Shown here one piece after another: positions 1-43,100 of a stretch of 64,000 bases of DNA. The translations under genes and the position numbers were made by a program. Under the pieces are notes generated by a model. It was not told the DNA's origin. It made no database searches and saw only the letters and a program-made list of their open reading frames with translations. Position 1 is the first letter of the stretch; every line of letters begins with the position of its first letter. The stretch covers positions 10,798,175-10,862,174 of the forward strand of contig NC_087078.1 in assembly GCF_026151205.1 (NCBI RefSeq), written 5' to 3'. The DNA is from Bolinopsis microptera. Lineage: Eukaryota; Ctenophora; Tentaculata; Lobata; Bolinopsidae.

Positions 1-3000
1 GACTGACGTTAACGCTGTCGGAGTAGCCGTAGATGAGTACACGTTCAGCACCGGTTCCTCTGGAGACGGAGTGATAAGTTGTGTGGTGTGGGGTGATTCA
101 CCCCCACACTCTGTCACGTGGTCTAACGAAAGGGGTGATGCTATCACCAACCAACCTGATGAGGTAACTGCCATAGATAGCCGAGAATTAATAGTCTCAA
201 TGTACGATTTTTGAGCATGATTTTGATTATATGTTTTGATGTCTTCCAACTTTTAGTTCCCAAATGACCCAACTTTCAGACAGAAATCGCAGAGAGTATA
301 ACAGAAGGCATTACTTACACCCACACGCTCACTGTTAAGAAGATGACGTTTGGGGATCAAGGAAAGTACACCTGCTCAGTTGTGTTTGTGGAAAACGAAA
401 CCCCCGTTAATGTCGTCACAACTCTTAACAAGCTTTGTAAGTTGATTATCAGTGATATTCAAACATCTATCCATCATGTTGCCAAAATTATATTTACATA
501 TTGGTATTGTTTTATGCATGTAAAACGGATCGTTTGCCCGCCAATTTGATTGTTTTCAATTGTTCGAAATATATATGTATATATATAATATATATATTCA
601 ATAAATTCACTGCTAAGTGATTAATTTTCAGCTGCAAGTTTCGAACCAGCAACACCATATTTCGTCCACGAGAAAACTGTCCAGTTCTCCTGCGTGTACA
701 ACGGTTTGGATGACCCGCAGAAGATCGAATGGTTCAGGGTAAATGAATACGCCGATATTAATTAATAATTAAACCGAAATAAACTGAAAATCTAAAATAT
801 CTTAAAAAGATGTCTTGTGAAAAACTACGTTTTCTTTTGTTTTTGTTTCATTGACTCGTTAAAACCATCACCATAAAGAGCTACGATCTCAGAGTTCAAC
901 AGACGATGCTGAAAACCTAATCAGCAACAGTGATGCTAAGTACACCATTACCACTGGCAACTTCAAAGAGGCCTTCAGTACGAAGACTAGCGTTATCACT
1001 GTAGAGAATGTTGAAGTTACTGACAGTGGCGACTACACCTGCAAATGGACCACCGAAACCTTCAATCCTAAGTCAACAATGGTAGTCTCTGTTCGATGTA
1101 AGTGATTCTGTATTTAGCACGGTGTTCCTCAAGAGTTGTGAGCCTTGTCATGATTTTTTATAATTTCTATATTGTTCCAGAATTTTCTGCTTTACAAAAT
1201 TCAATCATATTACAAACAGAAACAATTTCAGTGCTGACCACTCTCTACAACGGCATACAGCACTCTACAACGGTATACAGCACTGACGGGTCAATAAAGA
1301 TCACGTGCAACTATGAGGGTACAACGAGTGGCACCATGGAGTGGTACTATAATAGCCAGAAACTGGAAGATGCTGCTGATGATGCCATCACCATCAACCC
1401 TGGTTCCCTGCAGAGCAATGCTCAGCAGTACACTTTGACAATTACTGACGTTACTCCTCCTGAAAATACGGGGTCTTACAGCTGTGTTCTCTCGTTCACA
1501 GACGGGGACAGTCTGCGAGCAAGCACGGAGGTTGTGGTGCGAAAATCATCCTCAGTCGACAGAGCGGGCACTGCTGAATCCACCATAGTTGTAACTGGTG
1601 ATGACCTTTCTGCCAGATGCCTTATGGAAGGTGACAAGGTTCCCTCTGGAGTGACATGGACTAAAGGTGGCGATAATATCGTGTTCGATGGATCCGTTAA
1701 GATAGAAAACACGAATACCAAACAACTGGAAAGCAGCATAAAGTTTTTCAGCAACATAACTATAAAAAGCTTCAATTTTGCTGACGAGGATAGTTACATC
1801 TGTAGCTTCATTTTTGAGGACGGTATTAATGTGCAATCAACAATAGAGGTCGTGTCTGCTAAAATTACCAACAATGAATGTGAGTTTGTAGACATCCGAA
1901 CCGACACCAGCAATACCTTAACCTGTGCTTACCATGGTAGTAGTGCTGCCACTGCTGTTTCCTTTACTCTACCAGACGACTCAGTTGTTGCTGGAGTATT
2001 GGCTGAATTCAGCGCTGGAGGGGATGCCAGTACGGCAGGTTCCCAAACGGGTAGTTACGCTGTATCTAGTGTGAGTGAAGCGTCCAGTGGTTCGTACAAG
2101 TGTACCTTCACTTTAACAGGAGGGAAGACTGTGGAGTTCATTCAGAGACTAACTGCAAGGAGTAAGTAAAAACTGAAATGTTTATATAATTTCCATTCGC
2201 TTCTCCGCGAAATGTTGACTCCAGAAATTAAACATAAAGTGTGCTTATTAACCTTGAATGATCTTCGTGCAGTAACAACAAACGTTATTTCAGAGGCTGT
2301 CATCGAATCATCAGCTGGTCTAAATGCAAATCTCATCGTACAGGATTCTATAACTCTGACTTGTACCGTTGCCTCTGGTGCACGGTCCTTAGACTGGTTA
2401 GTGTAGAACTTGTTGCAGAACTATTCAGGTCCTTCGTATAATTTACATTTGATTCAAATTTCAGGTTTCAATATGTTCATCCTCCGATGTGCTATAACAT
2501 TCCATCCATTTTCTTAATTTTAGGTACAAGGGAGCGGTCAAGCTGATCGAGGAGGAAGATTACGAACGAATAAAACTGTCAGAATCAGACGACTTGGTTT
2601 CCAAAATAACTTTTGACATCGCTGACGACAGCGCAGGGTCATACACGTGTCGTGCGGTTCAGTACGACGACTTCTGCCCTACCGAGGAAACGTTTGACTC
2701 GGAACCGGTTGCGGTGTCAATCATAGCGGCCGCTCTGATAACAAACCCTGCTAGTGCCACCGCTTATGGTGGTGCAAGCCACGTGTTTGAATGCGTGTTC
2801 CCTAATCCATTCGGAACTGATAATAACGAAATCACGTGGTCTTTCAAAAGTGCTGGGGATTCTGTTGCTAGGGTAAGTTTTGACATTATGTTTTGGTCCT
2901 ACCAAAAATAAAAATGAAAATATCCAATCTCGTCGTAAATCTGATGTACATTTTTTACCGAAGTACTGATCACATCTAACGAGCAAACTCATGTTTCATG

Positions 3001-6000
3001 TTAGCAGTATATTATAGTGACTGCAACAAATAAAATCCGGTGCCTTCACTAATACTTTTCTCACTCAAATTTATCCCATAATCGCAGCCGATGATAGGAA
3101 ATGGAGATGTGTACAATGACCAAAGTGAGAGAGTAATCGATGGAACAAAGGCATCTGACAGCTCGGTTGCAAATAAAATTTCAACCACCCTCACCATCGG
3201 AAGTGTTAGTCAAATCCTTCAAGTGATATCTGAGATTGCTGTTTAAGTATTTGCCGTTTCAGAGGTTTCTTTGACTAACTTTCGGACGCATTTAAAAGCT
3301 GGATAATCACCAAGCCTTTGCTGATATTTGAATTGTTAACTTTACAGGTAAACTCGGAAGCAGCAGGAGAGTATATCTGTTTCATAAAGTGGGGAAGAAT
3401 ATTCATCAAGTCCGCACCCGCCACACTAACAGTACGAGAAATCTCTTCTCCGCCCGAAACAACCAACGTGGCCAAGGGAGGAGAGGCTAAGTTCACTTGT
3501 AAAACTTCCGGTGACAGCGCAGCGTTAATCACTCTCCACAAGACAAGTAGTGATGAGTCAGTTGGTACAGTTGTTGTGACTGAAGCTACATCTGGTGACA
3601 TTGTGACTACCACTGGAATATTGACCATTGCTGGTGTCACAGCTGTAGATCACGGTATTGAGTATTATTGCAAAGCAGCTTGGGGTGAAAACACAGTGGA
3701 ATCAGGTAACGTGTTCTTATCTGTTTTGGATATAACGAGCTCAACAGAAACTGTGTGGGGCCTCGCTGGTTATGTACCGGTTTTCAAATGTTATTCAGAT
3801 GCTTTGCTCAAAGTAAACGCGAACGGCGATCCGTATTTGGTCAACAAGCAGAAGACATACGCCGATGCTCAAATAAGTTGGGAGTTTTTTGACACTTCAG
3901 ACACATCCTGGAAATCAACTGCTTCAAATTCACGGTGAGTGCATGCTTGAAAATATGACCATTTTAAACTATATTAAATAAGATAGCAGCTGAATACTAG
4001 GGGTATAAACTCCCTGCGTTGTGGCTTGTTTGCTGTACATAATCTAAGCTAAAGCGAGTGGTCGCTGAACTTAAGTTTAAATCTTCCCGAATGGAAATTC
4101 GTGTATTTTATTCAAAAACTAAATCTTAAACTTGCCCCTAGATTCGTGGTTAAGACATCGATGAGAAGCGTTGATGGGGTAAATTTGTCTCCTATGTCTC
4201 TCAATAACCTGGAGGAAGTTGATAACGATCTGAAAGTAAGATGTAACATCGCCTACCAAACAGATGCAGCCAACAACTTCTACGGAGGTACAGTCACCTC
4301 AGGAGAAATGACCATGAAGATCAGTTCCATCACATCCTTCACTTCCTCAAAATCCGACCCACTGGTTGGAGAAACCATCACTCTAACCTGTACTGCAACC
4401 GGAGAAACTGCTCCTACTTTCTCTTTTACAACCCAAGGGAAGAACCATTTCGACACTACTTTCTTTAAGTTGGTGAAGGCTGCAACTGTTACTTCAGTCG
4501 ATTCAGTACACACTGCGGAATACACTACAGAGACTCTCAGGGTTAACACGATGATAAATGGACAAGTTTTCAACTGTCTGGTAAGAAGACAATAAAAAAA
4601 AGATTATTGAATACGTTTCAAACTTTACAGAGTACAGCAATTATAACGTATAAAATAAACTCGAATAAATTATTGCCCCCGTCTGTAAAATTTGACGGGA
4701 GACCAAACATGGTACTGCACAGTACAATGTGCCCGCAATTACATGGCCCCGATATGATTACAAAAATGTGAAACAAAATTGTGAAAAAATAAATGTGTGG
4801 TGAAGAATGTGAAACAGTTCAAATTTCTTCAGACGATGCTGATACACTGTTTTTATCAAAGCTGACAATCTTATTGTTCCTTATTAAATGAACTTTGTTA
4901 GGCTCTGCTTTCCTCTTCTCTTTCAATTCCTCCCAGAGCTTCTTGAAAGCTTTCCTTTCTTCCACTGATCTGTCCGGGCAAATGTAGATACTTCCCTCTT
5001 TTGTGCGTAGAAGTTTATAAGCTTCCCTCAGCACCTAAGCAGCCATATCAGATAGCTTAGTAGGTCGTGATGTGTCAGCTCAGACCAACTTTACAACAGT
5101 CACGAAATGAAGTTTTCTCGTTTATCTCACCAAGAACAGCAACTTTGTTTTCTAACTTCTCACCGTCGGATTCACTTATTCCATAGATTACGACGTTTCT
5201 GCTTCTTTCATCCTTTTGAGCTATTGTTTTAACTGCAGTACATATCTTCTTTGGCGTAAGAGCAGCTGCACAAGTCTTCTTCAGGGCAGATAAATATGAT
5301 TTCATTTCTGTCTGCACTGTTGTTTGGACTGACTTGAGTTCTTCGTCCTTCTTTTCAATGAGCTTCTTTTGCAAATCAATGACAGTTTTCTGCTCCGCGA
5401 TAAATGAAATGTTTTGTTTATATACTCTCTCCGCAACCATTTGCAAATGAGGGGCTGCATAACGATTCAGAATGAAACAAACAGTTTTCAGCCAATCACA
5501 CAGTTTTTCTTTCGAAACTGATCGCTTGTTCAGGTTTTTTTATACAAGATCACCGTATTCTTTAACATCCAGTTCGTGGCACATTTCATTAAAAACACTG
5601 TTTGTAGCTCTCGCTACCTGATCTGCATTCCTAATCCTATATTCCAACGTACAGTTCTTGTATGCAGGATTGTATACAACTACAATATTTTTGTAAATAA
5701 TCAATATTTATTGAAAATGCATAAATCTTGATTGATAGAACAATGCAGTTCAGCACATTTTATCCATTTTTCTTATCGAGATTCGCTATATTATTTCAGG
5801 CTGACTACGGATTAGCTCAGAAAACAGAAAAAGAATTGACAGTCACAACATATTTCAATTGTGCTGATGTCACATGGAAATCATTAAATCCAGGTAAGGC
5901 ATCACTCCTGATCTTAGATCATAGAACTTTTAAAGAAAATATTATATTAACAATCGCCCTGCAAGCATCGGATTTAATAACGCTCTGGTTTTGGTTTCTT

Positions 6001-8314
6001 TGGACCAACTTCTTGCCAAGAGTATATGCAACTTTAATACTTGTACTTGTAAGTAGATCTACGATTGGGGTTAAGTCAAGTTAAGGGTTGAAGAGTTCCA
6101 GGTTCTGATAAACCTATCAACATGCATCTGAGTCAAGATATGCACAACTTTTTAATTCTTACTTCAAAACTCACCTACCCTTCCATACAGATGGAAATGG
6201 AGCGACAATAGCAGAGGAAGATCTTGGTGATGGTTCTCTGAAGCAGACTATAACCTGCCCTGTTAACTCAGACCAAGCTAGATTTGAATTAGTTACCCGT
6301 GAGTATTATTACTAAACGTTTTACACAATCTGTTGAAAATAAGCATAATTACACATCCAATTAACGTTATCTTTAGAACCTTGCCCGTGTTTTATTATTG
6401 TGGTATCACTTTCCCTATTCATAACCAAAACTCAAGCTTTTTATATCATTTTCCAGCACCCGGCTCGGCTGCAGCAATAACTTGCACCAAGGAGACTGGA
6501 AAGTATGACAACTTCCTTGCCCGGTGCAAAGAAACAAACCCATTGTCAACTGGTACGGGAATACAGAAGATGGTTGTTGCAAACAGCGCAGAGCAGGTGC
6601 TTTTTTGTTTATTTGTTAATCTGTTTATATGCTTTATTTAGTATTTATTACATTCCATTTATTTGTAAAGTTTTCACAGGTAAGAAAAAGAGGCTTGTAA
6701 ATAGGCCGCTTTTTCTATATATAACTATAAGCCGCTTTTTCGCCAAAGAAAGTTGTACTCGTTGTAGATGTACCTGTCACAACTTTAACAGTATATATTT
6801 CAGCCAGCGCCTTGCACTGCCGAAGCAACTGGTGAATATTCGATTGCAATAATGAAAGAAAAACTGAACTCACCGGACGATAATGTTTGTGGTTTTAGAC
6901 ATCAAGTTACGTGTTTGGGTGACGGAAGTAAGTGTTTTCTGTAGTTTTACGAGTTGATAAAATCATCGTGGTGACTGTTGACGATGATAATAAAACTGGT
7001 ACATTCGCGTGTTTATGACGCATATATTCTCAAAACTTATTATCTAAAATGCACCATAAACTTGATAAAGTGCCAAGCGAAGGCACTCACGTGACTTTAA
7101 GTGAACATCTATGAACCATCATTGTACCGCTTACTACAAAACACTCCCCTCACAGCGTGCACTCTGGATACAGACAAAACAGATTGTCGTTACGAGGACG
7201 GCAAGGTGATTATAGAGTACTTTGTTAACTTGACACCTGGTGTTTGGACTCCCGCTGAGAGATATCCTCTCATAGTAGTGAAAAATAAAATTCAGTTCTG
7301 GAGCTGTTCAAACAGTTATAATAAAAGGTAGTTATTAAAAAGTTATTATTTATATTAAAATAGTTATTATATTTATATAATATACAGTCATTTTATTCAG
7401 TGAAGGGACCGTATTCTTTCTTAATATTAACCAGAATATTCTACGAGATATATTGAAAGATATTAACTTTAAGAAATATTGAGAGATATTGGGAGATATT
7501 GAGAGATATGGAAGATATGGAAGATATGGAAGATATGGAAGATATGGAAGATATGGAAGATATTGATAAATTATACTCGTAATCGGTAAACAGTAAATTT
7601 ATGATATTTATCAGACGAAGACGAGGTGTTGATGATCCCGACTACGACTTTGAGCAAAGTAATGATAATTCATCCATAGCTACAGGTAATTGGCTGGAAT
7701 TGAGCTGGTAAAATCAAATTGCTTCCTTGCCAAATACAAAGTGAGACTTCTTATTTTACTGATTCCCCAGTCTTCCCCACTAACATATATTTCTAATAAT
7801 AACCATATTTTATGATTAACGTGTATCTGTACAGATGATTCTGAGTCAGTCCACCACCTAGCAGCTACAACCGTGGGGGTGGCGACCGTGGTAGCTATCA
7901 CTGCCTTACTTTCCTTCCTTGTAGTCAGGTGAATTTACATTCTTCTTAATTGCAATGCATCGGTTTTATTTATGATGGGGAGTGGGGACCAATTATTTAT
8001 GATCTATGGCAAACATATTGTTTAGAATTTAACTATTGGATCTACATATTTTAATTGGGTGCACTTCAATATAAGCTAGAGAAACAGTTCACTCTGTGTG
8101 AACATGACAATCACCATGTACACTTGTAGACTGCACTAGCAAAATAATTTCTATCATGATCTGGGCATATTGAGATTCATAGTGTATGTAACCTAATTTA
8201 ATGGCAATTATATAATATTACTACTTTTGGCCCACCCTGTATTAGTAGCTTTATTGATTTTTTCGTTTTTTCAGATTAATAAAACGAAGGTCAGAAGATG
8301 TTTCTACACCCTAG
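1..8314 (+). CDS. Ig-superfamily type I membrane receptor, 3' part (18 exons)
   Basis: Exons read as 1-163, 280-436, 632-738, 893-1097, 1232-2161, 2294-2396, 2524-2872, 3088-3204, 3348-3934, 4142-4580, 5800-5893, 6191-6298, 6457-6596, 6804-6927, 7156-7327, 7615-7685, 7835-7928 and 8275-8314 (TAG). All borders are GT-AG and every phase closes, giving 1,332 residues; the 5' end lies outside the window. About ten Ig-like units are visible from the F-strand signature (DQGKYTC, DSGDYTC, NTGSYSC, DEDSYIC, SSGSYKC, SAGSYTC, AAGEYIC, HGIEYYC). A cysteine-rich membrane-proximal region follows, then NKRRRRGVDD (RRRR near 1265-1268), a TM helix near 1297-1319 and a short tail ending RRSEDVSTP without ITAM or ITIM motifs. 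Likely a cell-surface recognition or adhesion protein; the ligand is unknown. The acceptor at 892 could instead be at 880, also in frame. Confidence 0.85.
4819..5446 (-). mobile_element. Non-LTR retrotransposon ORF1-type fragment inside an intron
   Basis: The minus strand encodes two adjoining reading frames (5446-5075 and 5034-4819). The first has a coiled-coil-like N-terminus rich in K, E and Q followed by RSRNVVIYGISESDGE, which resembles the RRM-like start of LINE ORF1 proteins. The second has the pattern IYICPDRSVEERKAFKKLW followed by an LIRNNKIV motif, typical of the ORF1 C-terminal domain. A break separates the frames, so the copy is dead. It sits antisense in the intron between the Ig receptor exons ending at 4580 and starting at 5800, which explains why that intron is long. 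Confidence 0.7.
7490..7565. repeat. 9-bp tandem array (atatggaag)n
   Basis: About six copies of a 9-mer in an intron of the Ig receptor gene, preceded by a looser 10-bp gagagatatt pattern. It lies between exons 7156-7327 and 7615-7685 and does not touch either splice site. Confidence 0.9.
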
Positions 8315-9451: not shown

Positions 9452-11871
9452 GCGGTTTTTGACATAAAGACCACGTCTACAGGCTTAACCCTAGTGAAAA
9501 ATATTACCAACTTCCTTTATCTTTATACGGCCATGTCAAGTGCAAAATATGTAACAAAGCAAAAACAAAGAAGTGATAAGAGCTTCGCGTAAAGGGAATG
9601 GCGTGCACAATAACAACTGACGGGGCCCTTTTAGAAATATTTTTAAATCAAGTTCTTGTGTAAAATTATTTAGCACGCTTGCAATCGTTTCGAAAAACGT
9701 TAATTAATTTGAAAAATAATGATCTGATCGTTTTGAAAAACGTTCATATTTTTCAAAAGGTTAAAGAAGGTTTTCAAAAAGGCCCAACGGAAATTATATG
9801 CTCGATGCGCTAGGGCCCCAAATACTAATAGTAATAAGCGTATTTTTACCGTAGAATTCATTAAAAGTAGTTCTGAGATGATAACTGATATGGAGTTTGG
9901 CTGTGTCATATCAGGTGTCCACCGAGCGGTTCTGCTTTGTATCACGTTGTGACTCCAACGTCGTTTCACAGTCGTTCTTATGATACATGGGGAGCCGCGC
10001 ACTCATACAACGTATGACAAGGGCTCATCGGGTCACTTATTGACCATTGTTAATGGTCTGGCCCGGCGCGCGCTACTTCTTAGCACTTGCCATGCCATCG
10101 GGCCATAATATTTCGAGAAGAAAGCAGCGCGCGCTACTTCGAAGAAAGTTAGACGAGTAATATCCGTCAAGTCACTGACAATCACTGTAGTTGAGCGACC
10201 CTGTCTTGCGACTAGACAGCAAAAGGCATACGATTTTTATACGACAGATCCTTAAGTGTTTGGCTTGCAATAGCTATAATTGGGTACTTCGTCATCAGTT
10301 ATGCGTTATGATACCCATGCCACCAAACCTTACTGCCTGGCGGGCTTGCTATCACCTAACCATGTGCTTTTGCGCCACTGCGGGCGTGCTTGTTTCACCA
10401 CCGGGAGGCGGTCGTGCGCCATTTCAAGCCGAACGGCTTTGGATAGAGCAAGGGCTTGCTAGAGGTGATTATTTTTCAATAGCATGATCAATGATTGTCG
10501 TCGCGCCTTAAGGCCCTTTAGGCATGAAAATGATCTAGATCGGTGTGTTTTTGGACGTTGATTCCGAATCACCCCCCATGACGTAGGGTTAAAATGCTTC
10601 CCTGGAGAGTTATGGGCAAAAAACCGTTTTGGTCACGTGACAGGCTAGTAAGAGCCTTTCATGGGTGATGGGCCAAATAAAGGGTCGCAGCTTTATAATT
10701 TTGCAATTTAATGTGGTTGTCATGACTCCATTCATGGTGCATGGATGAATTCAGAATTCAAATTATAACAGTCCACTTGCAGATGGAAAAGCAGCAAGCT
10801 CTACGTTCAACGTTACGCGCGACGACAATCATTGATCATGCTATTGAAAAATAATCACCTCTAGCAAGCCCTTGCTCTATCCAAAGCCGTTCGGCTTGAA
10901 ATGGCGCACGACCGCCTCCCGGTGGTGAAACAAGCACGCCCGCAGTGGCGCAAAAGCACATGGTTAGGTGATAGCAAGCCCGCCAGGCAGTAAGATTTGG
11001 TGGCATGGGTATCATAACGCATAACTGATGACGAAGTACCCAATTATAGCTATTGCAAGCCAAACACTTAAGGATCTGTCGTATAAAAATCGTATGCCTT
11101 TTGCTGTCTAGTCGCAAGACAGGGTCGCTCAACTACAGTGATTGTCAGTGACTTGACGGATATTACTCGTCTAACTTTCTTCGAAGTAGCGCGCGCTGCT
11201 TTCTTCTCGAAATATTATGGCCCGATGGCATGGCAAGTACTAAGAAGTAGCGCGCGCCGGGCCAGACCATTAACAATGGTCAATAAGTGACCCGATGAGC
11301 CCTTGTCATACGTTGTATGAGTGCGCGGCTCCCCATGTATCATAAGAACGACTGTGAAACGACGTTGGAGTCACAACGTGATACAAAGCAGAACCGCTCG
11401 GTGGACACCTGATATGACACAGCCAAACTCCATATCAGTTATCATATCAGAACTACTTTTAATGAATTCTACGGTAAAAATACGCTTATTACTATTAGTA
11501 TTTGGGGCCCTAGCGCATCGAGCATATAATTTCCGTTGGGCCTTTTTGAAAACCTTCTTTAACCTTTTGAAAAATATGAACGTTTTTCAAAACGATCAGA
11601 TCATTATTTTTCAAATTAATTAACGTTTTTCGAAACGATTGCAAGCGTGCTAAATAATTTTACACAAGAACTTGATTTAAAAATATTTCTAAAAGGGCCC
11701 CGTCAGTTGTTATTGTGCACGCCATTCCCTTTACGCGAAGCTCTTATCACTTCTTTGTTTTTGCTTTGTTACATATTTTGCACTTGACATGGCCGTATAA
11801 AGATAAAGGAAGTTGGTAATATTTTTCACTAGGGTTAAGCCTGTAGACGTGGTCTTTATGTCAAAAACCGC
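9452..11871. mobile_element. Foldback-like element: 1,055-bp inverted arms around a 310-bp spacer
   Basis: Left arm 9452-10506 and right arm 10817-11871 are reverse complements with no net indel: the coordinate sum is 21323 at both the outer and inner edges. I saw only isolated substitutions, for example c/t at 10063 against 11260 and a Pro/Ser difference in the mirrored ORFs near 10330 and 10993. The spacer is 10507-10816. No transposase is visible, and the ORFs in the arms (98-100 codons) simply mirror each other. A non-autonomous foldback element or a recent palindromic duplication both fit. Confidence 0.8.
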
Positions 11872-13799: not shown

Positions 13800-14150
13800 G
13801 CCACTCTCTCCTTAAGATCTTGCAGATGTTAGCACCATACCGTACCTGTTCATTATAATAGCCCTAGACTATTGCATGAGACAAGCCTTAAGCAAGCACC
13901 CTGAAATAGGATTTACCATTAAGCCTTATAGGAGTAGGAGAGTCAAGGTGGAGAAGATATCGGTCACTGGTTTTGTGGATGACATTGCTCTGATAGCAGA
14001 TACTGAAAAGGAGACAGAGACGCTGATGCAAGAGATAGAAAGGGTTGCTGCCACAGTGGGACTTAGAATGAATGAAGGGAAAAACTAAATTCATTACTCA
14101 GAACATCGAGAACCCTGATACCATCAAGTCTCTGGGTAACCATGCTGAAA
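13800..14150 (+). mobile_element. Non-LTR reverse transcriptase fragment
   Basis: The frame from about 13840 to 14088 reads PYLFIIIALDYCM, then an Arg-rich stretch, then VTGFVDDIALIADTEKETE and VGLRMNEGK. This is the RT active-site region with FVDD in place of the usual FADD or YADD, plus the following LINE motif. The frame then slips and continues weakly (TKFITQNIENPD) into the array. Truncated on both sides, so it is not an active element. Confidence 0.8.
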
Positions 14151-14330
14151 GAAAGCCTGTCTCTGAAGAAGGAGAGACGATAAAAACGTGATACGATACG
14201 GTATGTTGAAATAAAGCCTGTCTCTGAAGAAGGAGAGACGATAAAAACGTGATACGATACGGTATGTTGAAATAAAGCCAGTCTCTGAAGAAGGAGAGAT
14301 GATAAATACGTGATACGAAACGGTATGCGA
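14143..14330. repeat. Three copies of a ~63-bp tandem unit
   Basis: The unit contains cctgtctctgaagaaggaga and gtgatacgatacggtatg, with copies starting near 14150, 14213 and 14276. The third copy runs directly into the ~340-bp array, suggesting one unstable tract. Confidence 0.85.
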
Positions 14331-16190
14331 AAGCTATGTAGTTGATCAGACTTAAAGTTACGTGTTCTTAAGAGGGTGAGAGGTTCTTTAGTAAGGCCGA
14401 CTGATTAAATGAGGCTCTGAAATGAACAGGAATCTAGCAATAATAGCATGGAGAGTGGGGAAAATCAAAACGCGGAATAATAATCTAACTCTAAGTTAAC
14501 GATAAACTGGTACAGAAATCAAAAGTCCGAACACGGAGTCTAGGAGTAGGAAATAGCTGTGAACCAAACAAACAGAATGGCACCCGTGCATGATATATTA
14601 AAATATGTACCGTTCTAGGATGCCTCCGCAAACTTTTGCTCCTCTGTAAATGCATGTGTTAGTGCTGTAGCGAAAGCTATGTAGTCGATCAGACTTCAAG
14701 TTACGTGTTCTTATTAGGGTGAGAGGTTCTTTAGTAAGGCCGACTGATTAAATGAGGCTCTAAAATGAACGGGAATCTAGCAATAATAGCATGGAGAGTG
14801 GGGAAAATCAAAAAGCGGAATAAATAATCTAACTCTATAAGTTAACGATAAACTGGTACAGAAATCAAAAGTCCGAACAAGGAGTCTAGGAGTAGGAAAT
14901 AGCTGTGAACCAAACAAACAGAATGGCACCCGTGCATGATATATTAAAATATGTACCGTTCTAGGATGCCTCCGCAAACTTTTGCTCCTCTGTAAATGCA
15001 CGTGTTAGTGCTGTAGCGAAAGCTATGTAGTCGATCAGACTTCAAGTTACGTGTTCTTATTAGGGTGAGAGGTTCTTTAGTAAGGCCGACTGATTAAATG
15101 AGGCTCTGAAATGAACAGGAATCTAGCAATAATAGCATGGAGAGTGGGGAAAATCAAAACGCGGAATAATAATCTAACTCTAAGTTAACGATAAACTGGT
15201 ACAGAAATCAAAAGTCTAGGAGTAGGAAATAACTGTGAACCAAACAAACAGAATGGCACCCGTGCATGATATGTTAAAATATGTACCGTTCTAGGATGCC
15301 TCCGCAAACTTTTGCTCCTCTGTAAATGCACGTGTTAGTGCTGTAGCGAAAGCTATGTAGTCGATCAGACTTCAAGTTACGTGTTCTTATTAGGGTGAGA
15401 GGTTCTTTAGTAAGGCCGACTGATTAAATGAGGCTCTGAAATGAACGGGAATCTAGCAATAATAGCATGGAGAGTGGGGAAAATCAAAAAGCGGAATAAA
15501 TAATCTAACTCTAAGTTAATGATAAACTGGTACAGAAATCAAAAGTCCGAACACGGAGTTTAGGAGTAGGAAATAGCTGTGAACCTAACAAACAGAATGG
15601 CACCCGTGCATGATATATTAAAATATGTACCGTTCTAGGATGCCTCCGCAAACTTTTGCTCCTCTGTAAATGCACGTGTTAGTGCTGTAGCGAAAGCTAT
15701 GTAGTTGATCAGACTTAAAGTTACGTGTTCTTAAGAGGGTGAGAGGTTCTTTAGTAAGGCCGACTGATTAAATGAGGCTCTAAAATGAACGGGAATCTAG
15801 CATGGAGAGTGGGGAAAATCAAAACGCGGAATAAATAATCTAACTCTAAGTTAACGATAAACTGGTACAGAAATCAAAAGTCCGAACACGGAGTCTAGGA
15901 GTAGGAAATAGCTGTGAACCAAACAAACAGAATGGCACCTGTGCATGATATGTTAAAATATGTACCGTTCTAGGATGCCTCCGCAAACTTTTGCTCCTCT
16001 GTAAATGCACGTGTTAGTGCTGTAGCGAAAGCTATGTAGTCGATCAGACTTCAAGTTACGTGTTCTTATTAGGGTGAGAGGTTCTTTAGTAAGGCCGACT
16101 GATTAAATGAGGCTCTAAAATGAACGGGAATCTAGCATGAAGACTGGGGAAAATCAAAAAGCGGAATAAATAATCTAACTCTAAGTTCTC
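14325..16190. repeat. ~340-bp satellite-like tandem array, about 5.4 copies
   Basis: The landmark gcgaaagctatgtagt recurs near 14325, 14669, 15015, 15348, 15688 and 16023, giving unit lengths of about 332-345 bp. Copies differ by point changes (gatcagacttaaag or gatcagacttcaag) and short indels (for example loss of the aataatagc segment in the last two copies). No conserved reading frame spans the units. Confidence 0.9.
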
Positions 16191-17590
16191 CACTACCTGA
16201 ATATTGATCGGGAACAGGTTAGCCGCGTATGTGGAAAGAGTGAGTTAGATTATAGGTAACAACGGGTAGTCTCAAGCTACCCGTCTTTGCACCGTAACTT
16301 AGCCATCTGATCTAGAAGAGGAAGGGAGGTTATCATCTACACATACTGTATTAGGAAGTTAATCGTGTCCTAGCTACAGATCATACCTTATTAAGAAGTT
16401 TATCGTATCCTGAAAAAAATACCTTATTAGGAAGTTTATCGTGTCCTAGAAACAGGCCATATAACAGAATTATCACTTTCTCCTCCTCCCAATCCACAGT
16501 ATTCCGGAGTTTCTGCAACGTCACTAAAACTGCAAAACATTGTAAGTTCATATGTAGATTCTATAAAAGGTTTGAATTAAAGCAGAGAGGTTAATAAGCA
16601 CTTATCATATTTAGATTATAGTTCAGTCAGTTTTTTTTGAGACGCCTCCATGAACCACCACGGGGCGACCTGCCCAGTAGTAAGAGCTGCCCAGTAGTAA
16701 GAGCTGCAGGAAATCACAAAAGCAATGAGGAATGTTGAAATTAAATGACTTTTGTCATTTATGGGTGCTTGTATAATAATTTTACCGCAAGATTTTGATA
16801 ATCTTTGTAATAAACTAGTGCAATGATTGGACAAGTCACAATCAACAATGATAAAAGTGTTTTATATAAAATAACCTAAAGCGAGAATGTCGTTAGTTAA
16901 CTATAAAATACAGTACCAAGCGATGTATTAAAGTAACACAATTATACTCGTTCTAATTGATATTAGCTTACTTTGATTCAACGAAAACCTACCTTTTATC
17001 TGCTTTCGTGAAATTCAAAAGTGATGTTAAAGTAACACGAGCCCTTTAAAGCTTGCAGGGGTTCCTCCTATTATCGTTGATCAATTATGTACCAAGTACA
17101 CTATGTAATACAGCAAAGTCGTCAGTCGATAACTGCTGTTAAAGCCATGAAAGTTCAAAGCGAGTGCAGAAACAAGAAATGGCGCGAAATCATAATGTTC
17201 AAGCCACACGTACAACGTATGATCTGCATTATGCTCCTTCATCAACTAATTCTAGTTTTAAACGATTTTGACACGCTAAAATGCGCGCGTGGATTTGCGC
17301 GGCGCGTAGAAAAATTTTAAAGCTGTCGGATAGAGGTTAATAAATTTTTCTACTGTCAACACAGCCCAAGTTATTCATGTTTTAATATCAAAAAATGTCC
17401 GATTTTTTTGTATTATTTTTAACTAATTTCCTTTTCAAATCGCTGCCACATCAAAATTATTTTACGAAAGTACATTAAATTTTCACAGAAAGCAAGCTCA
17501 ATCGTTTTAGAACTAAATTAAAAAAGAATTTAATATAAAAATGTTAAAACTTTAAAATTATCGATGGAATAAATTGCCAACGTCCAAATG
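16191..17590. other. Spacer with small local repeats, no gene recognised
   Basis: Three imperfect copies of ttaggaagtttatcgtgtcc lie between 16350 and 16455, and a doubled 15-mer (gcccagtagtaagagct) lies near 16670-16705. The rest is AT-rich with no supported exon. Confidence 0.5.
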
Positions 17591-22327: not shown

Positions 22328-23178
22328 AACACTTTGGTAAACACCTTGTTCAGTGTACAATGTACAATGTACAGTGTACAGTGTGCACCTTGTGTGTACA
22401 GTCTGGTGATTTGAAAAGTGAAGGTTGGGATAAGCTAGGATCAGCACAGAGCCTGGGCATCTTCTTATCGATTATGGTCCGGATGAAGGCTTTCAATTTG
22501 CGCAACGCACGCTTAGTAACCCTTAGTAACGCTTAGTAACGGGAACTCTTTTGTTATTGAACTGAATGTTTTGTGTGGAGTGACGAAATTTAATATAATG
22601 TGGCCTATCAGAATGATACGTTTGATTTTTTAGAACGTTTTTAGCGGTAAGATTGATTTTTGTAAAGTTCATGATTTCGTAAGTTTTGATGTTTGATAGT
22701 TTTGGATTTTTATGATTTTCTAGCTTGCAAAATTTTTCCAATTTAAGACAGATTTCAGACTGTTTGGACAGATTTCAGTATTTTTATAATTGATTTATTT
22801 GTTTTTCAAAATTGTTGAGTGTTTTACAAAATCTTAGTTAATATAAAGAGTTTAAATGACTATCAATTATCGGTTCAATGATAAAGAACATAGTGCAGAA
22901 AGACAGATTATTATATCAAGATAAATCAAGACTGAGCCTTAACTTTCACGCATGTTTTACTTTTTAACCTTGATACGAAAGTTTGGAATCAAAGTTTAAA
23001 CATTGTAATGTACGTAATCAATTAAAATTGAATAATGATTTCTTTTCAATACGGTTGTTAACTTGAATATTCTCGACGTTTGTTCAAATACAACATCTAA
23101 TCAGTAATTCAGACAGTTCATTGTATCAAGAATAATTTTATGATTGCTTTAATACTAATAACCTACCTTATCAGAAAC
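22328..23178. other. Intergenic: short GTAC-rich repeats then AT-rich DNA
   Basis: A run of near-palindromic 10-mers (gtacaatgta, gtacagtgta) lies at 22345-22400 right after the ASAH1 stop. A doubled cttagtaacg follows near 22510-22540. No exon is supported in the remainder. Confidence 0.5.
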
Positions 23179-25020
23179 ATGGCTCCGAAAGTGACAGTAC
23201 CGTTAGATTTTGGAATAGAGAACCTACACTATGAGTTTCACGGTAACGTGGTCCTAAAGTTACAAGGAGGAGAGGAAAAGAGAGCAAACTCCCTGATCCT
23301 GTCTTACCACAGTTCAGTGTTTGTTCACCTGTTCCTGGAACTGCACCAGACAGAACTAGAGATGGAGGACTTTGCGGGGGAAGCGGTGAAGAGGTTCCTG
23401 GGGGCCCTGTACAGCGGGGAGATCCTGCTGGAGAAACACTTGTTCAGAGATGTTAACAAGCTGTGTCACGTCTTCAAAGTAGAATGGTTAGCAGGGAGGT
23501 GTGGGGACTACTTTACCAGCCTGGTGGGTGGGGTGAGTCCCTCCTCTGATTACCAGACTTTGTTGTTCTTGTTTGAGGAGGCCAGGTTTTGTAGCAGGGT
23601 CATGAAATGTGACAGGTTTCTAGACCTGCTCCTAGAGAAGATTTATAGTCTGGAGAACAGAGCTGAGATATTTGTTGAGCCCTTTATGAGGAATTACTCT
23701 GAAGTAGAAACTAGTCAACTAGATTTAATTTTGCAGATTACAAGGAGTAATCCTGTTATCTTGTTGAAGATAATGCAGAAAAATATAGAGAGTGAGGGAA
23801 AGATGTTTGATGAAGCTTCTCGTTACCTCCTACAGAATGTTGATCTTTGTAAATGTATTTCTGAAGATGAAGCTTCTTTTGAAGAATTGTTTGATGTTTT
23901 AGATAGTGCTACACAATCATCTGACTCTGATGCATTATTTGTGAATAAGTTGTACAAGAAGTCAGTGAAGGAGTTTAAGAAAACGGTGAGTTTGAGTTCC
24001 TCTTCGCCATCAAATACAGTTTTATCTGCACCTGTACTTCCCCAAAGTACAACAGAAGCTTCTTTTGAGGAGGTGCTTGATGTTTTAGATAGTGCTCCAC
24101 AATCATCTGATGCTGATGCATTATTTGTGAATAAGTTGTACTGGCGATCTACGAAAGAGTTTAAGAAAACGATGAGTTTAAATTCCTCCTCGACATCAAA
24201 TAATACCTGGATCCATCCTGAATCTGCATATCCTCAAACAACAACAGAAATTCCCCACATATTTTGCTCATATGAAAGATTTCGTCGAATGAGTACCCAG
24301 GAATATCTTAATGCCGCTAAAGAATCTCCTCTTGTACTAAATTTGTATATGCTGATTGAAGGGCTTCTTCTGTGTGATGAATATCTTACCCCTGACATGG
24401 TACATGAAATAGAGATGGTTCGTCGTAAGAGAGGATGGAGCAGAATATCGCCTGAATTCCTTGATTCGTTGGATGATTCAGTCGCATTAGATCATGCATT
24501 AGAACAAAGCAATGATCTCACATCTATGGAAGAGAGTGTTAGACTAGTTGGAAGAGTAGTTGGGACGAACAAAAAGATGTTAAATTGGAATTCTTGCACA
24601 ATCAAAGATTTGTTCGAGACGTCAAAATGTTATGCCTTTTATTTCGAGCACCCTGACACTACTGATTGTCATCTTCCTGGAAAATGTGGATTTGTTCTTA
24701 AGTTTACCCCAGATATGAAATCAGGGCAACCCGACAAGTTCAAAGTAAACCTTTGTTTAAATCAGGAAGAATATCCTGAGGGACTTCATATTCATCCTGA
24801 GGTTGTGAAAGCTGACAAAATTCATTTGTTGCCTATGTTTTATGAACGATATGATAACGATATACAGCCTGACATGTGCTACTGCTTAGCAACGTTTACG
24901 TGGAATGAGTTGGGTATAAGTGAGGTAACTGGTGAAGGTTACTCGTTAACGTGGAAAATTGGTCTCTCACTTTTAGATCCTTTTAGTAGTTTGAAGATGG
25001 TGGTATTTATAACTTTATAA
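23179..25020 (+). CDS. Intronless BTB/POZ-domain protein with internal tandem repeat
   Basis: A single open frame of 613 residues. I prefer the ATG at 23179 (MAPKVTVPLDF, context AACATGG) over the upstream in-frame ATG at 23140, which adds a hydrophobic stub atypical for this family. Residues ~10-110 form a BTB fold (NVVLKLQGGEEKRANSLIL, SYHSSVF, ALYSGEILL), with a helical BACK-like stretch after it. Residues ~231-292 and ~293-356 are two copies of a ~62-residue unit (EASFEE-DVLDSA-QSSD-DALFVNKLY-KEFKKT). The C-terminal ~200 residues match no domain I can name. BTB proteins often act as dimeric scaffolds or Cullin-3 adaptors; the substrate is unknown. Being intronless among intron-rich genes suggests a retrocopy or a lineage-specific family. 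Confidence 0.85.
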   Translation: MAPKVTVPLDFGIENLHYEFHGNVVLKLQGGEEKRANSLILSYHSSVFVHLFLELHQTELEMEDFAGEAVKRFLGALYSGEILLEKHLFRDVNKLCHVFKVEWLAGRCGDYFTSLVGGVSPSSDYQTLLFLFEEARFCSRVMKCDRFLDLLLEKIYSLENRAEIFVEPFMRNYSEVETSQLDLILQITRSNPVILLKIMQKNIESEGKMFDEASRYLLQNVDLCKCISEDEASFEELFDVLDSATQSSDSDALFVNKLYKKSVKEFKKTVSLSSSSPSNTVLSAPVLPQSTTEASFEEVLDVLDSAPQSSDADALFVNKLYWRSTKEFKKTMSLNSSSTSNNTWIHPESAYPQTTTEIPHIFCSYERFRRMSTQEYLNAAKESPLVLNLYMLIEGLLLCDEYLTPDMVHEIEMVRRKRGWSRISPEFLDSLDDSVALDHALEQSNDLTSMEESVRLVGRVVGTNKKMLNWNSCTIKDLFETSKCYAFYFEHPDTTDCHLPGKCGFVLKFTPDMKSGQPDKFKVNLCLNQEEYPEGLHIHPEVVKADKIHLLPMFYERYDNDIQPDMCYCLATFTWNELGISEVTGEGYSLTWKIGLSLLDPFSSLKMVVFITL

Positions 25021-29129: not shown

Positions 29130-30192
29130 TTATTCCGGGTAAATTGGTAACGGAAAGTTAGGATCTGTAAAATTAGAATAATTTGCCATTGCAAAGTCCT
29201 CTTTATAAAGCCCATAAATCTTATCAATAATCTCCTGATCGATCTCACTAAGCCACTCCTTGGCTCGTTGTGTAGAAGTCTGTTTCCTTGGGTCACTAGC
29301 ACTATCATATGACCCTGAGAGGTCCACCGTACAGTTTATACGACTCCAAATGTCCTTATCTACAATGTTGGAGTACTCCAGAGGTACAATGTAATCATAC
29401 CGACCCTGAGGAATGCACAACATCTCATGTTGGGTGGTGAAATGATTGTTATCAGTCGTGTTGTATCTTATCAGATACCTCAGGAACTCCTCGAATGTGG
29501 GATACAGATATGACAACCGAAACTGGTCTGTCTCACCACGAATCTCCCTCACTATGTCCATTCCTATGTCTCTCTTTTCGTTCCCAGCTGAGGGTTCGCC
29601 AGAGAGCTTGTCCCTGTATCCAGACACCATCCTCGTCCAAGGGTTTCTTATCACTGCAAAACTGAAATCTTCCTTTATCCCCTTGTTAGAATTTATATAT
29701 TTCATTCTGTGCTTCATGGAGATTGTACCATGAACTTTGAAAAGTTCAGTGTGATCGAATTTTTTGGTTAGCGTACCCTCAGCTATCATCAGAGCTTCTA
29801 TCCAGTTAGAGCACCCTGATTTAGGCACCCCCGTGAAAATAGTCCGGATATTTGTGAAATAATAGGTCTGTGCCAGGTGCTCACACTCAAACCAATCACT
29901 AGGTGCATTATACTGAACCCCTAACATTGTCTGTGCCTTCTCCATTTGAGCGTGCAGCCAGTCCTGAGGAGGTGGGGCTGAGAAATAATCTATTTTCTGG
30001 TTCATCTTCTGTAAAGGGAGCTGGTCTGGTGTGGTCCTGGAGATTGGTGGCCACCAGCTCAATACTTGATTTGATGGTTGTTGAGGTGGTGATGTTGAGT
30101 TGGGGTAGGTTAATGATGATCAGCATGCTGAGGGTTACCAGAGAGATGAGCAGAAAGCATCTGTTACTGGGGAAACTTCCTGAGTTCACCAT
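29130..30192 (-). CDS. HNK-1/chondroitin-type carbohydrate sulfotransferase, frame-broken
   Basis: The catalytic frame (about 30110 to 29130) has the 5'-phosphosulfate loop VPKSGCSNWI, the 3'-phosphate motif VIRNPWTRMVSGYRDKL, then YPTFEEFLRYL and EMLCIPQGRYDYIVPLEY. This is the Sulfotransfer_2 family (CHST8-14/HNK-1ST), Golgi type II enzymes that use PAPS to sulfate glycans. The expected N-terminal signal anchor exists as MVNSGSFPSNRC followed by FLLISLVTLSMLIIINL from 30192, but one frame away. The catalytic frame has no ATG before residue M in QKMNQK near 30005, and its upstream end is a stop codon inside the TM coding stretch. The gene appears intronless. Either a one-base error or a real frameshift near 30085-30125 explains this. 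Confidence 0.85.
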
Positions 30193-37100: not shown

Positions 37101-40100
37101 ATGGTACCTGAACTGTGTGTGATTATAATTCTAATGTTTCAGGCTGTTCCCAAGAAGAAACTGCCGGTGTATGAGCCCATTATCCTGAAGGACCCCCCAG
37201 CAGAGCCCATTTACATGCTGGATCCCCCCTCTATCTCAGCTTTAGAACTGTGAGATATTTACATTTTATTGCAGACGATGCTACCAAAAGCTAGCGTACC
37301 GGAAAACGGCATTTTTTGTTAATTTACGGGACATTTTTTCGAAAAATTCGGGATCGGCTCGGACAGGCTTGTGGGAAATTTTGGCTATGAGTACCAAGAA
37401 GAAAAATATTTGAGAAATGAAAGAATTAAGATGCTTATATTTTGCAAGTACCTAGTAAGATTTAACATTTCTGGTAATACATTCCAGCTGCATTGTTTAG
37501 CTAAGAAAGATAATAAATCATGGGTACCATTTGTTGTTCACAGGCAAAAAAAGGTAAAATCTACGATGAAAAAAGTAAGTAGCAGGAAGTGGTTTCGATC
37601 CACCGACCTCTGGGTTATGGGCCCAGCACGCTTCCACTGCGCCACCCTGCTTGCTATCATCGGATATGTCGTCCTTGTATTTTATTGCTGCTGATAGGGC
37701 TGATGATTCTAAATTTTAGTCGGGCGTTTCTCTTCATGATAATAGTGATCTATTTTAAAAATGTATACATATCCAGAACGTTAAAGTTTGTTTAAAAGAA
37801 GCTGATGTCAGGTGATCATCCCAGTTTCGTTTCATACAACATGGTTAATACTTTACTGGAATGGAGGCTTTTGTCTTGTTAATGCCACTTTTCACTCTCC
37901 CAGTCTCATTATCTTGGTTTCCATACTCAAAAATACGGGATCCCGTCTATTAAGAGTCTTCTGTCTTAGCTCCTGGCTCCGGCCTGCTCCTGGGTCACTA
38001 GTGCTGGCCGTACTGGCTGCAGGTTGCGGCGTGTAGTGGTGGACTTTACTATACCCGCCAAACAGTGCGCGCAATAAATCGCTTATTACTAGCCAAACTA
38101 CTATGTTCAAAGTGCTTTTGCGATCGTGCGTGCGCAAATTTAACAAGATCAGATAAATTTAATTATAATTAGTATGTGATTTTGGGTTACAATAACTAAA
38201 AAAACTATCATAACTGGTCATTGAGCAGGTTTTGCCGTTCAAGGCATTCTAAATGTACGATCCACAAAATACTTCTTAAACAATTGTTGCGATGTTTAGA
38301 AAGGTCTACATTACATAGTGATCAGCAAGCAGGGTGGCGCAGTGGAAGCGTGCTGGGCCCATAACCCAGAGGTCGGTGGATCGAAACCACTTCCTGCTAC
38401 TTACTTTTTTCATGGCGGTCTTCATTTACAAAAATATATTTGTCTGTGATCGAATAGTGCTCATAATTTGTGCAGTTTTCTCCGCTGGACACAAAATCTT
38501 GAAGGTTTCACCATGAATGCTCATTGCTAATTGATCAAGTATAACGAAACAGATGGTTCGTGAATTGTGTACCTTTTCTGCTACGATCAGCCTGCAATCT
38601 TCATCGTGGATCAGATTTGTTAAGCATCTTTATCGGTCCAGATGATGAATACTTGATTGAATCAGAAAGTTGCCTAAATGTCACCATCCGATTAGAACAG
38701 AAAACAGCCTGCCCCCTCCCCACAGTTAAGTAAGCCGTAATTGGTTATCAATCAAATTTCACGAATGAAATTTAAACTTGTGGACTCCAAGTACATATTG
38801 GATGCTTAAAATTCTTTATTATCGTTAAGGAATGTATGTTTAAGAAATTTGTGATAGTAATAGAAAATTGGTCATAGGTGAGATTCGAACCTACGGGATG
38901 AGTATATATTAACACAAATTAAACCATTTTTGGATACTAAATCCACCACAGATTATGAATCACCTTTTTTAATTTTCTGTAAAAAGAAAAGATATTCAAA
39001 AAGTGTCAGAAGTGGGATTTGAACCCACGCCCACATTCGTGGACCAGAATGCTCATTCGTACGATTGCAAGATAACTCTTGAGTCTGGCGCCTTAGACCA
39101 CTCGGCCATCCTGACATGATGTTAAAGGCATATTAGCTCTCTATATACCGCAAAATTAAGCCTACGTCACTTCACCGTCATTACCAGGTAAATTATAAGC
39201 AGCTCAGTAGCTGCATCATATGTCACATGGTGCATATAACGCGATAAGATCATTTACTGCTACAACTATATATTGTAACGTGGTGAAACTATCGGACTAC
39301 TAAACAACGTGACATATGATGCAGCTACTGAGCTGCTTATAATTTACCTGGTAATGACGATGAAGTGACGTAGGCTTTATTTTGCGGTATATAGAGAGCT
39401 AATATGCCTTTAACATCATGTCAGGATGGCCGAGTGGTCTAAGGCGCCAGACTCAAGAGTTATCTTGCATTCGTACGAATGAGCATTCTGGTCCACGAAT
39501 GTGGGCGTGGGTTCAAATCCCACTTCTGACACTTTTTGAGTTTCCTTTCTTTTTACAGAAAATTAACAAAGATAATTCATAATCTGTGGTGGATTTAGTA
39601 TCCAAAAATGGTTCAATTTGTGTTAATACATACTCATCCCGTAGGTTCGAATCTCACCTGTGACCACTTTTCTGTTACTATCACACATTTCTTGATCATA
39701 CATGTTTAACATACACCTTAACATTGTAGAAGTGTTTATAAACTTGAAAATTAAAAAATACGTGCTACGAAAAATATGCTGCGACCCCCCCCCCTCCTAT
39801 CATACTTTGTGCAGCACAGAGCAATATGCTGCAGAGTGTGATTTATTTCACCTAACCGTGTGTATAACGTTATAAGATCATTTGCTGCTGCAACTATATG
39901 TACGTTCTTCATTGAAGTAGTCAGTAAAACAAGGACATGATACTATGTATATATTGTAACGTTCTGCAGTTCTGCTGTGAGTGCCTATTACATGATAATA
40001 CATAGTTGGCATATTTCCAACAATAAACGTTCAGACACTTTATGAAGATGTAATGTTGACACAAGCCGAGCTGTTGTTAATTGTCGTGATCATTACATGC

Positions 40101-43100
40101 GAGATTACTGATTAGGCTATACACTATACACTATACAGTATACCTTGTGCTGGTCCTTTGTGTTAGGAAGGACTATTAGCCCTCCCGGGTCATAAGGAAA
40201 CCGATTTTCCAATGTATAGCCTAATCAGTAATCTGTAATCTCGCATGAAAAGAGCGGGACGAGTAACAATAGCGCGGCTTGTGTCTACATCTTCATAAAG
40301 TGTCACGTTTATTGTTGGAAATATGCCAACTATGTGTTATCATGTAATACTAATAGGCACTCAGAGCAGAACGTTACAATATATAGTTGTAGCAGTAAAT
40401 GATCTTATCACTTTATATACACCACGTGACATATGATGCAACTACTGAGCTGCTTATAATTTACCTGGTAATGATGGTGAAGTGACGTAGGCTTTATTTT
40501 GCGGTATATAGAGAGCTAATATGCCTTTAATATCATGTCAGGATGGCCGAGTGGTCTAAGGCGCCAGACTCAAGAGTTATCTTGCAATCGTACGAATGAG
40601 CATTCTGGTCCACGAATGTGGGCGTGGGTTCAAATCCCACTTCTGACACTTTTTGAGTTTCCTTTCTTTTTACAGAAAATTAACAAAGATAATTCATAAT
40701 CTGTGGTCGATTTAGTATCCAAAAATGGTTAAATTTGTGTTAATATTATACTCATCCTGTAGGTTCGAATCTCACCTGTGACCACTTTTCTGTTACTATC
40801 ACAAATTTCTTGAGCATAATTTTAAACATACAACTTATAACATTGTAAAGGTATTTATAAACTTGAAAATTAAGAAAAAAGTGTTACGAAAAATATGCTG
40901 CGACCCCCCCCCCCCCCCCCCCATCATACTTTGTGCAGCACAGAGCAATAGGCTGCAGAGTGATTTATTTCACCTTACTGTGTATATAATAATGTTTCTA
41001 TTCGCCCAGGGACGTGGTAAAGCTGACAGCGCAATTTGTTGCTAAGAACGGAAAATCCTTCCTACAGACCCTGATACAGAAGGAACAGAAGAACTACTTG
41101 TTTGATTTCCTGAGACCCCAACACGGACACTTCCAATACTTCACCAAACTTGTTGAACAGTACTCGAAGGTATGGTTGTGAGGTTATACTTATAGTTGAA
41201 ATTGTGGTATGTGCCCCGTCGTACTGCTCTGGTCGAGCTTGGGTGAGTGAAATTAGAAAACCTCGCAAGAAATAAGTCCATAGAACTAAAATAGTCATTC
41301 AAACGAAAATAGTCACTAGAACGGAAAAAGTCACTAAAACGGAAGTTTGTCTCTGCAATGACAGTTAGTGGAGTAACACAGTTAGTGGAGTAACACTGAA
41401 AATACACGTGAACAAGACAAGGTGGGTAGTGTTTAGCAAGTATAGATGTAACAGTGTGTCAATTGTTTAGGATAAAAGTCGGAAAAGCAGTTAACTTGAT
41501 CAATTAGCACATGCTAAGGAGTCTTCCGCAACATTTTACAAAATAATTCATATGCTAGAGATATTCTGCTGAACATTATTCTGCCAATTACGGATAGTCT
41601 GATACTCGACAAAATGTAAAAATCAATAAATGAGGTATGAAAATGGTTGCGGTATCTAAACTTCTAGACCTTAAATGCTTTCATTTCTCAATTTGGTACG
41701 TCTGTACTAAGCTGTAAAATATCGAATTGAGCTCTAAGCTGGACAGCAGCTTGTGGTTTTCTATTGTCCAGTCAAAATTCAGGGAGTAGGGACATAATAA
41801 TCTTCTTGGAGAATTTCCTTGCAAATTGAAATCAGCGCTAACTAAGCGACGAATACCAAATTCGCTGCTTTTAGAGGTTCATATTATTGCGCTTGCCCAA
41901 AAATCACGTGTGACTTGGGTTTTTACGATTTTGCAGCCGAACAAAAAAGTTTTGCATAAACCCCAACCCTAACCCAAGCCATAACCCTGAAGCTAACCCT
42001 TACCGCAACCATAAGGACAACCCTATAACCCTAAAAATTTATTGGGGAGCGGCTTTTTGATGTTTGTTTCCGTCATCTGCATGTCAACAACAATTTAGTA
42101 AAGTCGTGACTCTTAACTCGGTAACTTTCTGAACTTTATGAAACTTAAGTCATTGACTGCGACATAACTCTCTTATTTGTCGTGACGGACGATGTTGAAT
42201 GTATCGTCGTAAGACTCACCTCAATTATTTTATAATTTATAACACTAATACATTATAACTAATTATTGGTATTATGATATTCTACATTTCACCTCTAACC
42301 CGTATTTATGTCAGATTCCCAGTATCTTACCCTGCTCAGCAAGATGGTCAGGTAACAAATAACAACTCTATGAGATGTTCAGGGGAATAAACCACTGGCC
42401 GAGTTGGGATGAGGGATAATCAGTAATATCACACATTAATATCACACATTATCACACATGTCAGGGAACCTTGTTGTTGGCATGTTAAACTCCGAGGCGC
42501 TGGTATTTACCAAAATAAAATATAACATGAGTATCAAAGAGTATCAAAGAGTATATGTATGTATGGGTATCAAAGAGTATGGGAGTGGAATCGAGAGTTT
42601 CGGAGCAAATCGAGGCCATGAGCCGAGCAAGTGGAGGCAATGAGTGGAGTCAAGTGGGGGCAACGAATTAGGCAACCTCACGAACCAGTTGTGAGTCCTG
42701 TGTTTAAACTCCAAGCTATTTTAGTTGGTTCCGCGAAAGTGGGTGACCCTTATTTGGCCTTATCGATATCCTGTCGAATAGCTAGTAGCGTCATGCTTAG
42801 TGTAATAGCCTAGGTCACTAGGTCGATATCCTGTCGAATAGCTAGTAGCGTCATGCTTAGTGTAATAGCCTAGGTCACTTACATATTGTTTAAGTTTGTA
42901 CGCATACTTAGCATAATAGCATAGGTTGGTTAGCCTAAAAATAACATCGAATAACACTAACAGTAAATTGTAAAAGTGTTCAAACAACGGTACTGAGCGA
43001 AGGGTCTGGTTGGATGGAGGTCGCCTCTTGTTTTAGTTAACGTTCAAGTGTTCCTAATTTCAGACAGTTTGAGTCTATAATGAGAGATTAGTGTCCGCAA

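Follow-up and report, generated by a model that had tools for sequence, protein, structure and literature searches.

The question raised by this locus is what kind of protein a gene of many immunoglobulin (Ig) domains encodes in the ctenophore Bolinopsis microptera, and whether it serves in recognition. The gene lies at the start of a 64,000-nucleotide stretch of contig NC_087078.1 (positions 10,798,175 to 10,862,174, forward strand), referred to here as the window. An earlier sequence-only reading had described a giant Ig receptor, whose irregular intron layout, it suggested, could mark a lineage-specific recognition molecule. The window-gene locus is designated C7, its exon coordinates are window positions, all on the + strand, and the sequence searches covered one assembly of 264.65 Mb in 232 contigs. 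A search with COX1 gave no match, and neither did one, run with no positive control, for the nuclear-receptor DNA-binding domain, a result weakly in keeping with a ctenophore.

Eighteen exons with consensus splice sites rejoin into a single open frame of 1,332 amino acids that ends in a stop codon at 8314, reproducing exactly the exon and residue counts first proposed. The window opens midway through an exon whose frame continues upstream with no stop, so that just the 3' portion of the gene lies within it. The exons are as follows.

Exon 1 (3' part), 1..163, +: first half of Ig unit 1; starts upstream of the window near C7:10797997; donor GAG/gtaact
Exon 2, 280..436, +: second half of Ig unit 1
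Exon 3, 632..738, +: first half of Ig unit 2; conserved in the paralogue C9c
Exon 4, 893..1097, +: second half of Ig unit 2; use of another acceptor that keeps the frame would move the start to 881
Exon 5, 1232..2161, +: 930 bp, three Ig units; found at 11 loci in the genome
Exon 6, 2294..2396, +: Ig
Exon 7, 2524..2872, +: Ig
Exon 8, 3088..3204, +: Ig
Exon 9, 3348..3934, +: Ig
Exon 10, 4142..4580, +: final two Ig-like units; 15 matches in the genome
Exon 11, 5800..5893, +: from the rejoined gene model and comparison with C9c
Exon 12, 6191..6298, +: Cys-rich membrane-proximal domain
Exon 13, 6457..6596, +: Cys-rich domain
Exon 14, 6804..6927, +: Cys-rich domain
Exon 15, 7156..7327, +: Cys-rich domain; 17 matches in the genome
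Exon 16, 7615..7685, +: acidic linker; forms RRRR together with the end of exon 15
Exon 17, 7835..7928, +: transmembrane (TM) helix; C9c counterpart 64% identical
Exon 18, 8275..8314, +: short tail of 13 residues, RLIKRRSEDVSTP, then stop

Pfam detects nine Ig_3 stretches in the 1,332-residue protein (E 6.8e-57), in keeping with the roughly ten Ig units counted previously, and the matches to Ig_3, I-set, and V-set lie well past the cut-off, with the B and F cysteines and the C-strand Trp in place. The cysteine-rich stalk, TM helix, and short tail described before are all present in the rejoined frame, and the 930-bp exon said to hold three Ig units is exon 5. A single-sequence AlphaFold model of this exon was uninformative (mean pLDDT 35.6) and was discarded. 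The Cys-rich segment matched no Pfam family and nothing in the PDB by sequence or profile; no fn3 (FNIII) domain was detected by Pfam in the window protein at E up to 1, and no ZP match was found in the protein or in its Cys-rich segment. The RRRR motif at the junction of exons 15 and 16, a putative furin-like site, is kept in the paralogue C9c, which likewise retains the TM helix and the RSED motif of the tail; the C9c tail ends in KQKRSEDLEAL. The gene model is not a product of chance, because paralogues retain the exon boundaries and the frame, even one that is only ~60% identical. Minus-strand open frames in intron 10 (window 4819-5034 and 5075-5539) probably represent a fragment of a mobile element.

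Just behind the Ig gene, at window 9452-11871, lies a perfect inverted repeat, likely a foldback-type element, with two 1,055-nt arms that are 100% complementary and separated by 310 nt. Tandem repeats follow at window 14142-16225, first a unit of 61 bp in three copies and then one of ~340 bp in five to six, and window 37579-40648 contains tRNA-Met genes as an inverted pair together with three more predicted tRNAs that have introns and recur in both orientations. The neighboring open reading frames are listed below.

Window 23101-25020: BTB protein
Window 29130-30119, -: sulfotransferase
Window 47087-47419 and 58940-59341, -: two very similar single-kringle frames
Window 53635-54717, -: reverse transcriptase

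Searches of the genome with the window exons located the membrane-proximal module at 11 or more loci. It is near-identical at six of these (C7, C9 8.53 and 9.77 Mb, and C11 17.83, 18.71, and 19.02 Mb), ~55–58% identical at C9 10.55 and 8.60 Mb, and more distant at C9 6.47, C8 4.71, and C6 11.03 Mb. Two of the near-identical copies are damaged: that at C11 17.83 Mb (C11a) carries 1-bp indels in exons 4 and 9, and exon 9 of that at C9 8.53 Mb (C9a) is interrupted by ~7 kb. A homologue of stalk exon 15 also occurs in five tandem copies, spaced ~0.8 kb apart, at C11:17958520-17962023 (-). The lineage-specific part of the original proposal gains from this family of paralogues at 11 or more loci and from a Cys-rich segment belonging to no Pfam or PDB family.

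Upstream of the window exons, a tandem array occupies 18.8 kb (C7:10776401-10795175) and consists of 19.7 copies of a 951-bp unit, 98–100% identical including their introns. Each unit contains two exons of phase 1-1, Ig A (327 bp) and Ig B (324 bp), which encode one Ig domain apiece, and it passes the Pfam ig cut-off. Units 6-16 are identical but for one, and the edge units differ. Further Ig exons precede the array, so that the gene has been recovered upstream as far as C7:10765362, although its 5' end was not reached; a LINE adjoins the first Ig exon found, and a scan upstream of that exon revealed neither a leader exon nor a signal peptide candidate. The gene spans at least 41 kb and encodes ~60 Ig domains in all. 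The ~40 contributed by the near-identical array come before the ~ten conserved Ig domains, which are followed by the Cys-rich domain, basic motif, TM helix, and tail. Array and window exons appear to form one transcript, since their strand, order, and open frames agree and the same order recurs at sister loci. The irregular layout stressed by the sequence-only reading therefore describes the membrane-proximal part of the gene but not the upstream array, in which each Ig domain has its own exon.

Related arrays are present at no fewer than 13 loci, with units on C1, C3, C4, C7, C9, and C10, and an array and a window-type tail occur together at four of them (C7, C9a, C9b, and C9c). Among the other Ig series, ~55 kb of diverged Ig exons lie ~0.9 kb apart at C5:15992028-16047252, with a weak exon 10 match downstream at 16058951. 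The units of this long C5 series (15.99-16.05 Mb) are unlike one another and ~42–52% identical to the query, and the series is possibly an ancestral-type member of the family. At C4:3526364-3552356 (-), ~27 nearly identical 950-bp units are followed by transposase-like and reverse transcriptase-like open reading frames.

Repeats this uniform could have been inflated or homogenized by the assembler. A few C7 units do carry 1–2 bp frameshifts, all at one site, and every one of them fails where 951- and 954-bp variants of the unit differ, as polishing errors would. Indeed, ~12 of the 27 variable columns of the C7 array fall with the frameshifts within a ~20-bp stretch that precedes the second Cys in Ig B, and a polishing error between the two variants is the likely source. 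As an account of the arrays themselves, however, an assembly artefact is scarcely credible, given that edge units are unlike core units, that the loci differ in unit number and in period (940–1057 bp), and that the same design occurs on many chromosomes.

A second alternative holds that the array is a satellite derived from coding sequence, amplified as dead or neutral DNA, and that the working gene consists of the window part only. Perfect identity extending into introns would fit this account, as would the broken copies C11a and C9a, the frameshifted C7 units, and the absence of a window-type tail within ~7 kb downstream of the array at C4 3.53 Mb. Against it, all 26 array exons drawn from 13 loci have lengths divisible by 3 (306–327 and 321–342 bp) and conserved splice sites while their introns vary, an in-frame stop occurs in just one of 150 scored matches in each of two array searches, and the order of array then tail is conserved at several loci. 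We therefore regard a satellite as improbable.

The layout of the C7 array also recalls systems in which alternative splicing or alternative promoters over tandem cassettes generate diversity, as in Dscam or the protocadherins. Tandem two-exon Ig cassettes of phase 1-1 resemble the 5' cassettes of chelicerate sDscam, in which cassettes of one or two Ig domains are likewise joined to a constant membrane-proximal part (PMC4835542). Those cassettes are diverse and are chosen by promoter and splicing, whereas the ctenophore cassettes of a locus are identical, so that choosing among them would yield no diversity; they lie just 140–227 bp apart and encode no leader peptide, which leaves scant room for promoters of their own. 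Such a mechanism is accordingly very improbable, and a relative of Dscam was rejected as an identity for the gene on the grounds of these identical cassettes and of a window protein in which no FNIII was found.

The arrays are homogenized within loci and diverged between them. Units inside an array are 93–100% alike, introns included, and between loci they fall into group I (C7, the window gene, with C4a, C4b, and C9a) and group II (C9b, C9c, C9d, C10b, C3a, C3b, C1, and C4c), while C10a stands alone. Across loci, exons outpace introns (amino-acid-changing divergence 10–19%, intron divergence 2–5%). For pairs of group II loci, intron divergence ranges over ~0.5–6%, and amino-acid-changing sites commonly differ by 10–19% (P down to 1e-9). 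Individual pairs illustrate the excess of exon change: 54/636 exon versus 6/391 intron differences for C9c-C3b (P 8e-7), 63/642 versus 13/392 for C9d-C10b, and 77/636 versus 13/391 for C1-C4c. The array introns are not constrained in themselves, because those of groups I and II are unalignable (divergence ~0.8 or more). As a control, window-region exons were more conserved than their introns in 6/6 pairs.

Codon models gave a dN/dS of 1.39 for group II arrays, which is marginal (P 0.047 against 1), and 1.03 for group I arrays. Pairs of loci are not independent, and pairwise values between distant array groups were saturated and were left out. For the window region the ratio was 0.43–0.46 (P 3e-5 and 8e-5), and the Ig domains encoded there are constrained by purifying selection. 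Within a single pair of genes, C7 and C9a, the numbers of amino-acid-changing and silent differences were 30:8 in the array and 12:16 in the window region (P 0.004). Silent sites in array exons also diverge more than the introns do (P 7e-5), so that some of the exon excess may reflect conversion by divergent donors and not selection. In group II the columns that vary, placed by eye, are concentrated in the region from the C-strand Trp to the E strand and around the FG hairpin, places through which Ig domains often bind. The proposal of a recognition function thus draws indirect support from diversifying change in the upstream array. The irregular intron phases are not the mark of such a function, because the part of the gene in which they occur is the conserved end and the array has a textbook layout.

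One type of array is found on two types of tail, the window type (Ig, Cys-rich, RRRR, TM) and a ZP type. At C1, the array is followed by one more Ig exon, by Sushi, ZP-N, and ZP-C exons whose matches all exceed the Pfam cut-offs on a hand-joined translation, and by an RRKR site. This Sushi-ZP-RRKR tail comes after arrays at C1 1.27 Mb, C10 16.83 Mb, and C3 10.55 and 10.76 Mb. C9b has a window-type tail with ~95–97% exon identity, yet its array is of group II, like that of C9c; the C9c tail is only ~61% identical to the window-type tail, though its array too is of group II. Because the same array type sits on window-type and on Sushi-ZP-RRKR tails, these comparisons of sequence show that arrays have been exchanged between genes and between the two tail types.

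The gene might instead encode a giant structural protein, a spring or mesoglea component comparable to titin or hemicentin. Unequal exchange would then homogenize the repeats, and the length of the array would matter rather than its sequence. Huge tandem Ig rods are well established as structural elements, the ZP tail of the sister genes would suit a filament, and a group I dN/dS near 1 would suit relaxed constraint. This explanation is unlikely on several grounds. Amino-acid-changing divergence in group II exceeds intron divergence, with dN/dS above 1, which is unexpected for a spring; the protein has a TM helix and a short tail; and divergent faces occur at 13 or more loci. Titin acts inside the cell, whereas hemicentin is a secreted protein, and neither is known to combine a TM helix with identical units that change fast. 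The ctenophore gene shares dozens of tandem Ig domains with both but differs in pairing a TM helix with near-identical units that change fast.

Known recognition systems offer further parallels. The Alr proteins of Hydractinia are membrane allorecognition receptors of the Ig superfamily (IgSF), encoded by a multi-gene family and having few extracellular domains, the distal Ig domains of which change fast. The ctenophore genes resemble them as an IgSF membrane family with fast-changing distal Ig domains, and differ in that Alr is not known to have a homogenized array. Abalone VERL is the egg-coat receptor for lysin and contains ~22 tandem repeats of Ig-like fold, the internal ones homogenized and the recognition repeats fast-changing (PMC3567151, PMC8830517). 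Both are giant extracellular proteins with homogenized tandem repeats, and the ctenophore sister genes also carry a C-terminal ZP module. However, VERL repeats are ZP-N domains, whereas those of the ctenophore are canonical Ig domains, and in the ctenophore ZP is confined to the sister array genes. By analogy, design and evolution appear most like those of VERL, although the window gene is not filed with the VERL family because no ZP module could be detected in it and it is built of canonical Ig repeats.

On balance, we favor a reading in which the gene encodes a giant Ig protein of the membrane, probably of type I, whose membrane-proximal part lies in the window and which most likely acts as a multivalent receptor for recognition or adhesion. 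The roles judged likeliest involve contact recognition at a surface or coat, whether of gametes, of self and non-self, or of microbes, with no firm choice among them. Each gene would display many copies of one binding face along a rod, so that weak contacts become avid, and exchange between units would spread a new variant along the rod and shift the specificity of the whole locus together. The window-type tail would anchor this rod to the membrane, where a furin-like protease might, as a guess, cut at RRRR, and the products of the ZP-module sister genes could polymerize into a coat or filament.

Ctenophores are often placed as the sister group to all other animals. More tentatively, with the balance tilting somewhat against it, they may have independently evolved recognition by giant Ig rods. 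Every locus would then have a binding face of its own, carried by a homogenized array; arrays would be swapped between membrane-anchored and ZP-polymerizing tails, and selection would drive the faces of different loci apart. No account of such ctenophore arrays was found in the literature searched, in which coverage of subscription papers was thin; a study of the ctenophore immune repertoire treats TIR, NACHT, SRCR, and lectin receptors and contains no Ig arrays (PMC11797021). If this interpretation is correct, the family would be a concrete candidate, at the molecular level, for recognition at the cell surface or between gametes in ctenophores, and it would form a second case, unrelated to VERL, of recognition by means of homogenized repeats. 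It would also offer a testable mechanism in which homogenization within genes and selection between genes jointly alter specificity.
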